In this document: piece by piece, positions 2,063 to 9,845 of the stretch
Numbering within the stretch: the first letter of the stretch is position 1
Layout: the number at the start of each line of letters is the position of its first letter
Virus record (IMG/VR): IMGVR_UViG_3300028190_000003
Span: 1-20,334 of that record
DNA from: a virus
Length of the DNA stretch: 20,334 bases
Reading direction: 5' to 3' (one strand)
Made by a program: the position numbers and the translations under genes
The notes under the pieces: generated by a model
Told to the model about the DNA's origin: nothing
What the model saw: the letters and a program-made list of their open reading frames with translations, nothing else
Database searches by the model: none

Positions 2063-2654
2063 CAAAATCTATCCACCCTGTAAAGATCAACTTAGGGTCT
2101 TTTAGTGGTGGATTTCCTCTGTGTAAGTGGGTATATCCCGCAGGCCATAGTAAAAAGTGATTACGAACTGGCTTAACTCGTAATGACTGGTATAGAAATT
2201 CTAATTCACCGCCATCTTCCACGTCATTTAAAAACAATGACCATGCAATTATAGTTTGTCTTGATGTCATGTCCCATGATTGTTCATGATGCCATGCATG
2301 ATATCCACCTGTAGGTTCTGTTTCCTGTATACGTCCACCACTAACAAATACCTGACGGTAGGTATCTCTTATTTGTGGGTAACGCTCAAACAAATCGTCG
2401 AATATATCTCCTTCGATTATATTGATCATATCCTGTGTTTGTGGTATGTAACCATAAGGCATAGCTAGATAACCAAGAGACTCGTCCTTCTTTCTTCTGA
2501 TATCAGAAGTATCAAACTCATTTCTTGGGATTGTTAAACCACGAGCTTTGCATTCTTCCCATGTATTCAACCAATCATCGATCATTTCTTCGGGAAAGAA
2601 ATTCTCATATAATAGTATATGTTCACCTAAGTCGGTGACTTCTCTTTCACTCAT
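2058..2654 (-). CDS. 2OG-Fe(II) oxygenase, prolyl-4-hydroxylase-like
   Basis: A 198-residue dioxygenase-like protein with a full-length double-stranded beta-helix. The Fe(II) facial triad is visible as H122-x-E124 in GYHAWHHEQ and a distal His in PAGYTHLHRGN (H176 or H178). K188 in DPKLIFTGWIDF is the likely 2OG carboxylate contact. The EDGGELEF strand (146-153) is typical of the P4H-like branch found across large phages and algal viruses. The ATG overlaps the SET-domain gene's TGA (ATGA), so the two genes are translationally coupled. The substrate cannot be read from sequence. P4H-like enzymes usually hydroxylate protein side chains, so a virion or host protein is a fair guess but not shown. 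Confidence 0.8.
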   Translation of the reverse strand: MSEREVTDLGEHILLYENFFPEEMIDDWLNTWEECKARGLTIPRNEFDTSDIRRKKDESLGYLAMPYGYIPQTQDMINIIEGDIFDDLFERYPQIRDTYRQVFVSGGRIQETEPTGGYHAWHHEQSWDMTSRQTIIAWSLFLNDVEDGGELEFLYQSLRVKPVRNHFLLWPAGYTHLHRGNPPLKDPKLIFTGWIDFA

Positions 2655-3022
2655 CTGTAACTCACAACTTCTTTTCCTCTAATCCATCTACCGTGACAAG
2701 CACATTTAAATGGACTATTCAACTTATCTTCCGTAGTCTCATAATCAAAAGTAATCTGTTCCCCTATATTAATCTTACGTTTTGCAAGTATTAAGGGTTC
2801 AAGTATACCTTCCTTGACTACAATCTTTGCACTAGGATCACAATGGTGATTTATATAACCACCTTCATAGTGTTCCATGTGTCTCGCTCCTATTTGGATA
2901 GATGTTCTAGTCGGCTCAGGGAAATAATTTCCATTTAACACGAGTATGATATGGCCTGCATCAATTTCTTTTGATGCAAATAGCCCTAGATACCCCTTCT
3001 CAATTTCTTTTATCTCAACCAA
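2651..3022 (-). CDS. SET-domain protein, minimal lysine methyltransferase-like
   Basis: A 123-residue protein that is almost entirely a SET domain, the S-adenosylmethionine-dependent protein-lysine methyltransferase fold. The first motif is GYLGLFASKEIDAG (10-23). The knot-forming NHxC motif is N58-H-H-C61 followed by DPS, and GEQITFDY (87-94) carries the catalytic Tyr94. A reduced post-SET segment follows with F105, C107, C109 and HGRWIRG, which lacks the third zinc Cys of the classic CxCx4C. Its size resembles the chlorovirus histone methyltransferase vSET (about 119 residues). The only usable start is TTG at 3022, because a TAG lies directly upstream in frame. It overlaps the preceding 28-residue gene by eight bases and ends in ATGA with the oxygenase. 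Confidence 0.8.
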   Translation of the reverse strand: MVEIKEIEKGYLGLFASKEIDAGHIILVLNGNYFPEPTRTSIQIGARHMEHYEGGYINHHCDPSAKIVVKEGILEPLILAKRKINIGEQITFDYETTEDKLNSPFKCACHGRWIRGKEVVSYR

Positions 3023-3101
3023 CTAACGCCAACCATTCCTTAATAAAAAATGCAATTAAGAAAAACAGCAACACCATCCAAATTGGATCGACCTTGACCA
3101 T
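3015..3101 (-). CDS. 28-residue single-helix membrane peptide
   Basis: A very short gene that fills an otherwise empty gap. It begins with ATG at 3101, three bases after the stop of the basic repeat protein, and ends with TGA at 3015, overlapping the TTG start of the SET gene. The peptide is MVKVDPIWMVLLFFLIAFFI followed by KEWLALVG: a short charged start, one transmembrane helix (about 7-20) and an amphipathic tail. An AGG lies close upstream of the start. The exact fit between neighbours supports it being real. Role unknown; small phage membrane peptides may act in lysis timing, membrane remodelling or superinfection exclusion. Confidence 0.55.
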   Translation of the reverse strand: MVKVDPIWMVLLFFLIAFFIKEWLALVG

Positions 3102-3104
3102 AAC

Positions 3105-3458
3105 CTAATGAGACCTGTTCGATCCAACTCTAGGTTTTTTATTCGTGTGACCGCTTACCTTCTTCTTCTTCTTTCGAGTCTTAGGTGGTGCAATACCACC
3201 TTTGTAAGCTTCGTTTTTACGTTTTGTAGATTTGTCATCGGCAACGAATTTACCTTTTGCACCTCTTGCTCGTCTCTTACGATTAGCAGGTGTTAATCCA
3301 TCGACATATGCTTCATTGACATCCGTAGTATCGGGATCATCTTTGATGTAATGTCCTTTCTTATTCCTTGCACGTTCTCCCGAACCACCAAGAAAAAAAG
3401 ATCGAAACCAACTACTCATTCCAAATCGTCCACGTCTAGGCTTTTCATTTCTAGCCAT
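3105..3458 (-). CDS. Lys/Arg-rich protein with a duplicated DD..NEAY motif
   Basis: A 117-residue, strongly basic protein. Two copies of a 29-residue unit lie 34 residues apart (29-57 and 63-91). Each has RAR, a G-[HK]-[YF]-[IV] strand, DD, then NEAY and a final Pro. The C-terminus (93-117) is almost pure Lys/Arg/Gly/Ser and looks like a histone tail. Short proteins with this KG.YV.DD..T...NEAY motif recur in marine T4-like phages, function unknown to me. DNA or RNA binding is plausible from charge alone. I chose the ATG at 3458 rather than one 54 bases upstream: it has an AGAGGAAG ribosome site and overlaps the previous stop by only eight bases. Confidence 0.72.
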   Translation of the reverse strand: MARNEKPRRGRFGMSSWFRSFFLGGSGERARNKKGHYIKDDPDTTDVNEAYVDGLTPANRKRRARGAKGKFVADDKSTKRKNEAYKGGIAPPKTRKKKKKVSGHTNKKPRVGSNRSH

Positions 3459-3681
3459 TATCTTCTTCCTCTTTATTACTAAACACAACTCCACCTCGTC
3501 TGACGAGTTCATTTCTGACCTTCGCTCTCAACTTCGGTTTCGTCCTCTCATTATTAAATGCTTCAATAAGATCACTCTTACTTTTGCACTTCATATAATT
3601 ATATTCCCAACGAGTTATAGTACCACCAGTAGCAGTCCTATTCCAATTTTTTACTGTCGGGCCAAATTTAATTGGGGGCAT
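3451..3681 (-). CDS. Conserved small T4-like phage protein (MPPIKFGPT family)
   Basis: A 76-residue basic protein beginning MPPIKFGPTVKNWNRT with a conserved-looking KCKSKSDLIEAFNNE..KPKLRAKVRNELVRRG block (32-63). I recognise this arrangement as a conserved hypothetical protein of marine T4-like phages (MPPIKF at the start, NELVRRG towards the end), with no function known to me. The C-terminus is acidic (NKEEEDNG). A strong ribosome site (AAAGGAAGAG) lies just before the ATG at 3681, and a TATAAATG octamer lies a few bases further upstream. Confidence 0.75.
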   Translation of the reverse strand: MPPIKFGPTVKNWNRTATGGTITRWEYNYMKCKSKSDLIEAFNNERTKPKLRAKVRNELVRRGGVVFSNKEEEDNG

Positions 3682-4058: not shown

Positions 4059-4751
4059 TTAATCGTCAAATCCCTCCATCGCTTCATCGTGATATGGTAG
4101 TGGGTCTTGTTTAGACCCCTGTTCCTTACCAGTCCATAATAGCAAAGCATGTCTTTCTCCAGTATACAATGGTTCTACACTGTGCCATCTGAGGGTTGAA
4201 TTATTAAACGCAACCATTGTTCCTCTTCGGGTCATAATAATATGACCATCTACAATAAGTCTTCCACCAGTAAACTCTTCATCTAACATGAAGATAGCAG
4301 TTGCTCTATCATTCTTATCTGCTTCATCACGATGCCATGGAAATAGGTTATCCTGACTGTAATGTATCACTTGCATAAAGTTGACTCTTTCATAGTCTGT
4401 TCCTTCTGGCATGTAATCAGCGACAACTGCGTATATTTCATCATGTGCTGGTGTGTCACGGAAGAATGTTCCTATGTGCATGTTGTTATGAAAATATCGG
4501 TGGTTTCTTCCAATCCACTCTTCATCTACTGGTAAAAATTGATTCTCATTCTCACTGTCAGGCGGATGATAAACTTCTATCTCTTGCAGCTTCAAATACT
4601 CAGCATGAATCAATTCACAACGATCAGGTGTCAACACCCTATCCTTTATGATGAGTTGATCTAAGTTTCTCCACTCTTGTTGGTCTTCACCTTCAGCTCC
4701 TCGTGGGGTCTTGTAAGGCACCATGACCTTTCTTCGTTTTCTTTCTACCAT
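4059..4751 (-). CDS. 2OG-Fe(II) oxygenase, P4H/AlkB-like beta-helix
   Basis: A 230-residue dioxygenase-like protein. H140-R-D142 in FPWHRDEADK is the HxD iron motif and H190 in STLRWHSVEP is the distal ligand. R200 in YTGERHALLLW is the likely 2OG-binding residue, and GGRLIV (162-167) is the usual beta-hairpin strand. All catalytic positions are present, so it should be active. Substrate unknown; DNA-repair (AlkB-like) and protein-hydroxylase roles both remain possible. The start at 4751 is the ATG in ATGGTAG that overlaps the preceding stop. An alternative ATG at 4724 sits behind a GAAAGG sequence. The frame is also open up to 4865 but that would overlap the upstream gene heavily. Confidence 0.78.
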   Translation of the reverse strand: MVERKRRKVMVPYKTPRGAEGEDQQEWRNLDQLIIKDRVLTPDRCELIHAEYLKLQEIEVYHPPDSENENQFLPVDEEWIGRNHRYFHNNMHIGTFFRDTPAHDEIYAVVADYMPEGTDYERVNFMQVIHYSQDNLFPWHRDEADKNDRATAIFMLDEEFTGGRLIVDGHIIMTRRGTMVAFNNSTLRWHSVEPLYTGERHALLLWTGKEQGSKQDPLPYHDEAMEGFDD

Positions 4752-4984
4752 GGTAACATTGACATCCCTATTTGTCTGAGAATAAACTCTATGATGACTA
4801 CAAATATAACACCACCAATTATCTGATATGTCCAATACTGCCAACCAGTAAGTGACCTTGACCATTGTGCAAGTTTACTGTTATGTGCTTTATCATATGC
4901 ACCAGTTTTATTGCCTATCTTCTCAGCCCAGTAATTAGGGTCTACAGAATTCTTGATTGCTTTTAAAATTTTACCTAGCACCAC
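4745..4984 (-). CDS. Small protein with C-terminal membrane helix (probable GTG start)
   Basis: About 79 residues: a basic amphipathic start (LGKILKAIKNSVD), a polar middle, then one membrane helix near the end (YQIIGGVIFVVIIEFILRQ), giving a tail-anchored layout. The open frame reaches an ATG at 5044, but that would lie 74 bases inside the upstream oxygenase gene. Tandem GTG codons at 4984 and 4981 follow an AGGGTAGGAAC ribosome site, so GTG is the better start. Function unknown; holin-like or membrane adaptor roles cannot be tested from sequence. Confidence 0.55.
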   Translation of the reverse strand: MVLGKILKAIKNSVDPNYWAEKIGNKTGAYDKAHNSKLAQWSRSLTGWQYWTYQIIGGVIFVVIIEFILRQIGMSMLPW

Positions 4985-5675
4985 CGTTCCTACCCTTTGA
5001 TGGATGAAAAAACAGCACTTGACTGAATCTCCAGTTGTCTCCACTATATTTTGTGTAATCGTCTATATACGCACCGTGTAATCTGTTGCCGGGCACAATA
5101 ATTCCTCTATTAAATTTATGTGGGATGAGTTGTTGTAAATCCATATCATCTTCTACAGGATATAACAAACTCTGATGTTCTCTGTTCTCTAACCATGCAC
5201 CCTCATATATGGCTGTTCCACCATTTTCAATCGTATCAAGATATATGATCAAATTCAATGTGGACATTTCATCAGGTGTTCCTAGTGGACTGTCAATATG
5301 TGGGTAATGTTGTAATTTATTATCAAAGATGTTAATCGTTTGAAAACAGTTGACCTCATATAAAGCATTCCATGTATATTCATGTCTCCACCAGTGGTTT
5401 CGACAACAATTTAATATTCGTTGCATGTCATTATCATATCTTCTTGTAGGATGTCCTACTTTGTCAACAACCCGACAGTCATTATAATCAACTCCATTAG
5501 GACTATCTCTTTCGCTGTTGTATTTCCAATAGGGATATGGTCTATTGCGTAGAGCCTCATTTATCTCTTCGGGATTCTCATAGAAGTTGTCTATGATTAG
5601 AATACCATCATCAAAGGTTAAATCCCAATGCTCTGCTTGTTTGAAATGCTCATCTAATGAAAATGCTTTTCTCAT
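4971..5675 (-). CDS. 2OG-Fe(II) oxygenase-like (DUF6445-type pattern)
   Basis: A 234-residue protein with a clear facial triad. H126-I-D128 in HYPHIDSPLGTPDE is followed by strand NLIIYLDTIENGGTAIYEG (141-159). The distal H200 is in VPGNRLHGAYID, and R216 in NWRFSQVLFFHP is the 2OG contact. The long loop between the GG hairpin and the distal His, and the FFHP ending, recall the phage and bacterial DUF6445 group; I am fairly but not fully sure of that subfamily. The ATG overlaps the TGA of the neighbouring TIGR02466-like oxygenase (ATGA), so the two are made as a coupled pair from different subfamilies. Confidence 0.78.
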   Translation of the reverse strand: MRKAFSLDEHFKQAEHWDLTFDDGILIIDNFYENPEEINEALRNRPYPYWKYNSERDSPNGVDYNDCRVVDKVGHPTRRYDNDMQRILNCCRNHWWRHEYTWNALYEVNCFQTINIFDNKLQHYPHIDSPLGTPDEMSTLNLIIYLDTIENGGTAIYEGAWLENREHQSLLYPVEDDMDLQQLIPHKFNRGIIVPGNRLHGAYIDDYTKYSGDNWRFSQVLFFHPSKGRNGGAR

Positions 5676-6448
5676 TTGAATTCTTGACTCCTAAGAAACT
5701 CATAACTCAGCTGATCACCTGACTCAGTATCATTTAATATTTCGTTGTGCATTAAATTAAAGGATAATGCTATTCGTTCGTATTCTTCATCACCACTAAA
5801 ATCACCATGAACACCGTGTAACATATAAGAGGGCCACATACAAAATTGACCTGTTTTAGGATGAATGATTAAATCAGATTGTGTTCCTGTAGTTCCTGTT
5901 GAGGTAGTTCCCCACATATCATTGAAATTATCCATGTCTACGTCTCTTGCTTTGTGCTGTGCAATAGTAGTATAATTGGGATTAAGGAATTTAATGGGTT
6001 GTGCGTTGTCATCTGCTTTGACGTAATATGTTCCTGACAACATTGAGTTAACATGATTATGAAAATCGTGAAAATCATCATGACTGTAAACACTGATCCA
6101 AGCAAACAAATGAATATCATGTCGTGAGATATAACTAACGTCATGATACCATTGTTGAGCGATGAACTTGATATAGGTGTCTTTTATGACATTAGAAAAT
6201 GTGTTATACCAGTTATAATCCAATAACTGGAGTCTAGCGTCATTGTCAAAATAGGTGGTGTAATTTCGTCTTGGTTCATCGTCACGAGACTCAACCGTCT
6301 CGATCATTTGACGACAATTATGTGCTATTAACTCGTGTGGTAAATCCAATTCTCCACGTAAGAATGGAGTTGGAAAGATATAATCTACTACGTAGTTTTC
6401 AACTGGCTGAAATAACTGTTCGTCATTCCGTATTTTCGCTGCCTTCAT
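5672..6448 (-). CDS. 2OG-Fe(II) oxygenase, TIGR02466-like
   Basis: A 258-residue protein with the layout of the phage 2OG-Fe(II) family TIGR02466. It starts with a variable N-terminal domain, FPTPFLRGEL (25-34). The metal segment FHDFHNHVNSMLSGTYYVK follows (126-144, H130 and H132 with further His nearby), then a loop with a GTTSTGTTGTQ low-complexity run (180-190). The distal half is GQFCMWPSYMLHGVHGDFSG (H211, H214), with R225 and S229 in ERIALSFNL. Length and order are normal. A GAGGAATAAGA ribosome site supports the ATG at 6448, which lies inside the end of the lipoprotein gene. Substrate unknown. Confidence 0.82.
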   Translation of the reverse strand: MKAAKIRNDEQLFQPVENYVVDYIFPTPFLRGELDLPHELIAHNCRQMIETVESRDDEPRRNYTTYFDNDARLQLLDYNWYNTFSNVIKDTYIKFIAQQWYHDVSYISRHDIHLFAWISVYSHDDFHDFHNHVNSMLSGTYYVKADDNAQPIKFLNPNYTTIAQHKARDVDMDNFNDMWGTTSTGTTGTQSDLIIHPKTGQFCMWPSYMLHGVHGDFSGDEEYERIALSFNLMHNEILNDTESGDQLSYEFLRSQEFK

Positions 6449-8974: not shown

Positions 8975-9225
8975 AGGTCTTGGTGATTCCACGGCTGTTT
9001 CATATACTTCGAGTGCCATTTCTCCAACTGGTCATATCCGCCTATTGATTGACCGTTTATTCTTATTTGTGGGAACGTTCGAGCCTTGGGGAATTCAAAT
9101 AATATATCATCCCGAGTAAAATCTTCGTCCAACTGTTTATATATGTAATCGTAGCCATATTGTTTGCACAATAATTTTGCTTGAGTGCAGTAAGGACATT
9201 GTGGTTTACCCCATATTTCTATCAT
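8971..9225 (-). CDS. nrdC: Glutaredoxin (NrdC-like)
   Basis: An 84-residue dithiol glutaredoxin. C10-P-Y-C13 is the redox pair, T50-F-P52 the cis-proline loop and G62-G63-Y-D the glutathione-binding end, all normal in position for class I glutaredoxins. Its usual job is to return electrons to NrdA after each turnover, and it sits downstream of nrdA and nrdB here. Its ATG overlaps the stop of the QueC-like gene. The symbol follows T4 usage; the T4 protein is a thioredoxin/glutaredoxin hybrid, so treat it as functional shorthand. Confidence 0.85.
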   Translation of the reverse strand: MIEIWGKPQCPYCTQAKLLCKQYGYDYIYKQLDEDFTRDDILFEFPKARTFPQIRINGQSIGGYDQLEKWHSKYMKQPWNHQDL

Positions 9226-9845
9226 GTTGGTTTAAGACCTCCTCTCATTTTTTTATACTCACCACATTTGTAACAAACTCCACATGGAGATTTCCCATCA
9301 AATGCTAATGGATGGCCACAACTCTGTGCCCATGGTTTAACTTCATCAGGAATCAGTTCCCATTGTTGTCGTTTCGTCATTCCACTAAGTGGTGGATACA
9401 GTTTCTGGCCATGGGGTCTCTCGTTCATCATGGCACAATAATGTTCAAAGACTAAGAAGAACTCCCATGCTCTTGGATGATAATGATAATCTCCACCAAC
9501 ACCGTATTCATGATCACCACTATTTACACCCCAAAAGAAGTTCTTAACATCAGGGTATCTTGTTGCAAGTTGACACGCTGCAAGAACCCAATGTTTTGAA
9601 GAATGAAACCCATCTTCTCTTTCACCAAAGTTCTGATCATACGTTGATTGTTTATGTATTAATAATGGAACTTTATAGTGGTCAGTAATCTGTGGGATAT
9701 TGGCATTTACTTCCCTTGAAGCACAAGCAGGATGTTCGAATACAGAATGAACGGCAGCTACAATTTCGTGATCAGATTCCGTTAACCAATGAAGTAAAGC
9801 GACACTCTCGATGCCACCCGAAAACATAACAAAACATTTTTCCAT
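9222..9845 (-). CDS. queC: QueC-like 7-cyano-7-deazaguanine (preQ0) synthase
   Basis: A 207-residue PP-loop ATPase. The nucleotide loop reads F8-S-G-G-I-E-S14, with Glu where most QueC proteins have Asp (SGGxDS). GVNSGDHEYG follows (about 105-114), and a C-terminal zinc site is formed by C176, C188, C191 and C194 (SCGHP...SPCGVCYKCGEYKKM). QueC converts 7-carboxy-7-deazaguanine to preQ0 using ATP and ammonia. Phages use preQ0 or derivatives either to modify their DNA or to supply tRNA queuosine. No other pathway gene (FolE, QueD, QueE, DpdA) is visible in this window. The start follows the previous stop directly (TAG-ATG) without a ribosome site. Confidence 0.82.
   Translation of the reverse strand: MEKCFVMFSGGIESVALLHWLTESDHEIVAAVHSVFEHPACASREVNANIPQITDHYKVPLLIHKQSTYDQNFGEREDGFHSSKHWVLAACQLATRYPDVKNFFWGVNSGDHEYGVGGDYHYHPRAWEFFLVFEHYCAMMNERPHGQKLYPPLSGMTKRQQWELIPDEVKPWAQSCGHPLAFDGKSPCGVCYKCGEYKKMRGGLKPT

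Follow-up and report, generated by a model that had tools for sequence, protein, structure and literature searches.

The window analysed here is a 20,334-nucleotide (20 kb) stretch of an IMG/VR virus record, IMGVR_UViG_3300028190_000003, which carries T4-like ribonucleotide reductase genes whose nearest relatives are those of Pelagibacter phage HTVC008M (66% in NrdB). Five genes follow one another on its minus strand: a conserved phage gene of 76 residues (3451–3681), a gene for a basic protein of 117 residues (3105–3458), a hydrophobic mini-ORF of 28 residues (3015–3101), a gene for a 123-residue SET-domain methyltransferase (2651–3022) and a 2OG-Fe(II) oxygenase gene (2058–2654; PF13640, 1.3e-9; phrog_61). 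An initial annotation of this DNA had described a 123-residue SET protein with NHxC and GEQITFDY motifs, and two genes upstream of it, with only the 28-residue gene between, a basic protein with 34-residue-spaced RAR..DD..NEAY repeats and a Lys/Arg tail; these descriptions proved accurate.

The SET ORF matched the Pfam SET family PF00856 at 6e-10 with 39.9 bits, the curated cut-off being 22.4 bits, and its start codon, a TTG, lines up with the ATG that begins the relatives in contigs L006 and L086. Along the protein lie the motifs TSIQIG (residues 40–45), NHHC (58–61), GEQITFDY (87–94, with ITFDY at 90–94), TTE (96–98) and FKCACH (105–110). The AF2 model of the SET protein (27 phage members) has a pLDDT of 89, and many SET chains match it at Z over 10 in VIA comparisons. 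Among the close SET pairs for which dN/dS could be computed, four gave values of 0.15–0.23, one of 0.50 and one of 0.90, the last being a pair with very low dS; the gene is under purifying selection in most of these pairs. The window ORF can be regarded on solid grounds as a genuine member of the SET family with a predicted SET fold.

The basic protein contains 19 Lys and 15 Arg in its 117 residues (pI 11.1), starts with an amphipathic segment of the form GMSxWF, and holds two copies of a 23-residue motif whose elements RAR (29/63), DD (40/74) and NEAY (48/82) are each exactly 34 residues apart. Its AF2 model has a pLDDT of 51, and this low value suggests that the protein is disordered. No Pfam family scored above cut-off against the basic protein and the AT-hook core RGRP is absent from it, whereas the tail of two of its relatives (L008 and L009) is AT-hook-like, with the sequence RGRPKGSKNKK. 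Identity to the window protein is 90% in L006, 68% in L009 and 61% in L007 and L008. At least 482 relatives with the motif were found among the 600 pattern matches listed and, given its presence at hundreds of phage loci, the motif is not a product of chance. Usually it is present as a single copy, preceded by a start that is hydrophobic or amphipathic and followed by a tail that is Lys-rich or AT-hook-like. Small proteins of marine phages widely share it as a module, which can be written RAR.KKG.[YF].ADD.STP.[V]NEA[YW]; their starts vary and their tails are Lys-rich or of the RGRPKGSKNK kind. Another tiny Arg-rich protein, with the pattern GRGRR.K.S.STMNK.KKR...RGQG, was observed at L086:5501–5656 and L129:5592–5756; in L008 and L009, too, a gene for it lies downstream of the basic gene, and in L086 it occupies the place directly upstream of the SET gene.

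The initial annotation had also drawn attention to the coupling of the SET gene to the oxygenase gene by ATGA. The overlap of oxygenase start and SET stop is real (2651–2654), but it is not a conserved feature, as L006, the sole contig with the same order of 76-residue gene, basic gene and SET gene, has a gene other than the oxygenase after SET. In contig L110 the gene downstream of SET looks oxygenase-like by eye and has no Pfam match. The first 6.5 kb of the window hold at least four 2OG-Fe(II) oxygenase genes, all on the minus strand (112–768, 2058–2654, 4059–4865 and 5672–6448; PF13759 and PF13640), so that the adjacency of SET to one of them needs no special explanation. A DUF6445 gene (4971–5675) lies among these oxygenase genes, and further along the window encodes a PP-loop protein of the PAPS-reductase/QueC kind (9222–9845, minus strand) that scored just below the Pfam cut-offs.

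The 28-residue mini-ORF has no counterpart at the same place in L006. The 76-residue gene adjoins the basic gene in L006–L009 too, and adjoins other SET genes in L093 and L128–L132, the SETs of L128–L132 belonging to a second, different phage lineage. Its family, which has 301 relatives by search and the signature PKxRxKxRNELxRRG, is often found near basic mini-proteins. As a marker of the SET/basic pair it was rejected, because a basic-motif gene was present in five of 80 of its loci and a SET gene in one of 80.

A profile search of IMG/VR with the SET protein returned 55 loci, most of which share the signature P[TS][RK]TSI[QRK][IV]...H[LI]E...NHHC[DN]P...GEEITFDYETTE...PF.C.CHG. The surroundings of these loci vary and include T4-like ribonucleotide reductase, NAD-ligase/helicase and terminase/portal regions. 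A constant partner gene was sought, and none was common to more than nine of the 29 distinct loci, which fits a stand-alone enzyme. Searches of 50,697 phage records by tblastn, run with four different queries, turned up no members; an NCBIfam search of the phage SET gave no match, and PHROG gave one weak match for one of the 27 phage members. We found no paper dealing with SET enzymes of tailed bacterial phages in the open-access literature searched; BFVD includes SET-annotated proteins of uncultured Caudovirales. The phage SETs form a phage-only clade (26 tree rows, from IMG/VR).

The size of the protein had led the initial annotation to compare it with the histone-methylating vSET of chloroviruses (PBCV-1 A612L, a histone H3K27 methyltransferase of 119 residues; PDB 1n3j, 2g46). 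The two are alike in size and in SET motifs III and IV, but the kinship was not upheld by our comparisons, and the host of vSET has histones whereas a bacterial host has none. The nearest fold to the SET model is instead that of BurB, a class V SET enzyme and methionine S-methyltransferase of Burkholderia thailandensis (PDB 9l4t, 9l4v), which ranked first in Foldseek (4.3e-7) and reached a VIA Z of 15.0 over 119 of 123 residues at 27% identity, against 12.2 for the next group (ASH1L); vSET was not among the best 50 structural matches. The sequence match to BurB likewise runs colinearly over the full length without the SET-I gap of about 20 residues that is needed by MLL, and the phage profile matches BurB at 8e-11 versus 2e-6 for vSET. 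MLL/SET1, ASH1L and SETD2 share the SET core and score highly in the NHxC-FDY part, but they have a longer SET-I insert and the YxG tyrosine of motif II.

A tree of 103 rows and 146 columns, rooted at its midpoint and with long branches for the BurB and L137 rows, gives a comparable placement. All 26 core phage rows group in a single clade (95/91), the sister row of which is a Chlorobiaceae SET (L137:3959–4330). A 47-row clade (98/94) unites the two with BurB, with SETs encoded beside Pls/PosA-type synthetases and with SETs that are fused to a cyanophycin synthetase. MLL1, which is the only histone lysine methyltransferase placed in the tree, is separated from these by a 97/91 branch and falls in the opposite half. 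Taken with the predicted structure, this topology places the phage SET in the biosynthetic branch of bacterial SET enzymes and not in the histone-modifying branch.

In the active site, residues N58, H59, D93 and Y94 are invariant in all 26 phage members. The tyrosine of the motif II YxG, which in Set7/9 (Y245) lines the lysine channel (PMC3585878), is replaced by leucine (L29 in the window protein) in 25 of the 26 and by Phe in the other; at the same position BurB has Val and MLL1 has Tyr. All phage members keep Glu98 of the TTE segment, which also occurs in BurB and the synthetase-linked SETs, whereas MLL1 has Ile there. With BurB the phage protein further shares the same compact fold, the xTxQI...HL strand, a tyrosine (Tyr94, equivalent to Y124) and the STE/TTE..F.C.C ending. 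It differs from BurB, however, at about 27% identity, in the SAM-contacting residues (H72 to T40, R133 to S103 and H138 to A108) and in the pocket, where Ser88 of BurB corresponds to G54. The phage post-SET is also shorter, being CxCH rather than CxCGxxxC, and keeps Cys61, Cys107 and Cys109. The residue that follows Cys109 is His in 21 of the 26 members and Cys in four, while the L123 protein, the only member with neither, has also lost Cys61 and Cys109. The exchange of His110 for Cys110 and the joint losses in L123 fit a zinc site whose fourth ligand has moved.

In its genomic setting the phage SET is again unlike its relatives. It is not part of a biosynthetic cluster as BurB is: no DMSP or NRPS-PKS genes were present within the window or near the SET genes in the loci read, and the window has no S-methylmethionine or DMSP pathway gene. 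Bacterial SETs fused to cyanophycin synthetase (L143), next to Pls/PosA-family synthetases (L138–L140) or in an ATP-grasp plus ABC-exporter cluster (L137) share the 47-row clade and the TRYSIQI and TTTE..MAEPF.C.C motifs with the phage proteins, but they sit in peptide or polymer synthesis loci and no such synthetase was present in the phage loci read. In fold, and probably also in how large a substrate it takes, the phage SET is like BurB, yet it falls outside BurB proper.

We put at about even odds (a probability of roughly 0.5) the reading, based on the modelled fold and the tree, that the phage SET is a stand-alone BurB-like SAM-dependent methyltransferase acting on an amino acid or an amino-acid-like compound. 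The following is what we infer about catalysis, the binding of SAM and zinc, the substrate and the part that the enzyme plays in infection. Marine phages would have acquired a minimal SET of the biosynthetic branch, which then moved between phage types that are unrelated. SAM would bind via the NH motif, the substrate would enter a narrow channel that Tyr94 and the TSIQ strand close off, and the site would be closed by a zinc knuckle made up of Cys61, Cys107, Cys109 and His110, the last of which is Cys in some relatives. The likeliest substrate would be a small amino-acid-type compound of the host, possibly methionine by analogy with BurB, or else another amino acid or a short polymer, and the basic neighbor would be an optional companion. 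The products of Pls and cyanophycin synthetases are rich in Lys or Arg, and for that reason a lysine side chain is also a possible substrate. BurB itself turns free methionine into S-methylmethionine (PMC7496086, PMC12542666). That several unrelated types of marine phage use a SET of their own to methylate a free amino acid or polymer in the infected cell, such as methionine to S-methylmethionine, is a tentative proposal that we place well below even odds. If the amino-acid reading is true, the phage protein would be a SET-based auxiliary metabolic enzyme, which could feed the marine pool of organic sulfur or amines.

The initial annotation had favored a different substrate, the basic protein itself. 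Under that explanation the SET would methylate lysines of its neighbor, which perhaps binds DNA, and thereby tune DNA packing or a part of the virion; it would represent a phage analogue of histone-tail methylation. The pairing on which it draws is real in part. A basic gene lies directly upstream of SET in four distinct contigs (the window, L006, L089/L090 and L104) of two phage types, the window and L006 being T4-like and L089 and L104 being of an unrelated terminase/portal type. All four paired basic proteins have a GLSxWF-type start, and a SET gene adjoins about four of the 12 distinct contigs with basic proteins of that type, whereas for the remaining motif proteins there is one distant SET at most. 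The AT-hook-like tails of the L008 and L009 relatives and the location of the bacterial SET kin beside synthetases of polycationic polymers are further points in favor of a basic substrate.

Against it stands the independence of the two genes, which the initial annotation had named as an outcome that would refute its proposal: 47 of 50 basic-motif contigs are without SET and 25 of the 29 distinct SET loci show no basic-motif gene nearby, although these contigs are fragments and a gene missing from one of them may still be present in the phage. Three of the 50 basic-motif contigs, searched whole, had a SET match, and only that of L006 belongs to this SET clade; moreover, L086, a close relative of the window SET, is without the basic gene. 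The four paired SETs fall in one 10-row subclade of the tree and may thus reflect only one or two events, and the tyrosine of the lysine channel is missing. The link between the basic and SET genes is therefore more than random yet optional, and with four contigs among 29 SET loci the basic protein is a possible but not an obligatory substrate. On balance we regard methylation of the basic protein as unlikely.

Methylation of protein lysines is the commonest known activity of SET enzymes, and a stand-alone gene with no constant phage partner could methylate a lysine of a host protein, for instance a ribosomal or nucleoid one, so as to turn host functions to the use of the phage. The loss of the motif II tyrosine and the best fold match being a small-molecule enzyme both argue against this, and no particular host target is indicated, making such a role doubtful in our judgment. 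Depletion of SAM is a known phage tactic, as with the SAM-cleaving enzyme of T3, and a stand-alone SET in varied phages might mainly convert SAM to SAH on an abundant host acceptor, starving methyltransferases of the host or its defenses as an anti-restriction measure. This is very improbable given that the KM values of BurB are millimolar and its activity low (PMC12542666).

The grouping of a phage clade with BurB and with the synthesis of amino-acid polymers would extend to viruses the recently found small-molecule branch of SET enzymes. To our knowledge, SET enzymes have been studied almost only as modifiers of histones. At about 120 residues, the phage SETs are also very small enzymes with which the evolution of SET substrate choice could be tested.

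Some side observations concern bacterial SET loci. In Planctomycetes, cyanophycin synthetases carry a C-terminal SET domain (L143:1310–4453, and also L141, L144 and L153), which suggests methylation of the polymer or of its amino acids; in a Pfam and NCBIfam check of neighboring genes, the L143 protein scored 1043 bits for cyanophycin synthetase (cut-off 850). A SET gene lies directly upstream of a Pls/PosA-type NRPS, similar to epsilon-poly-lysine synthetase, in L138, L139 and L140, which come from Planctomycetota, Limnohabitans and an uncultured bacterium; the Pls/PosA domain matches there are below cut-off, and the genes are truncated where the stretches read come to an end. Finally, L137:64–4330, on a short contig, encodes three SET domains in the order of a stand-alone SET, a fusion of a D-Ala-D-Ala-ligase-like ATP-grasp to SET, an ABC exporter and a second stand-alone SET, an arrangement that looks like an undescribed peptide cluster.
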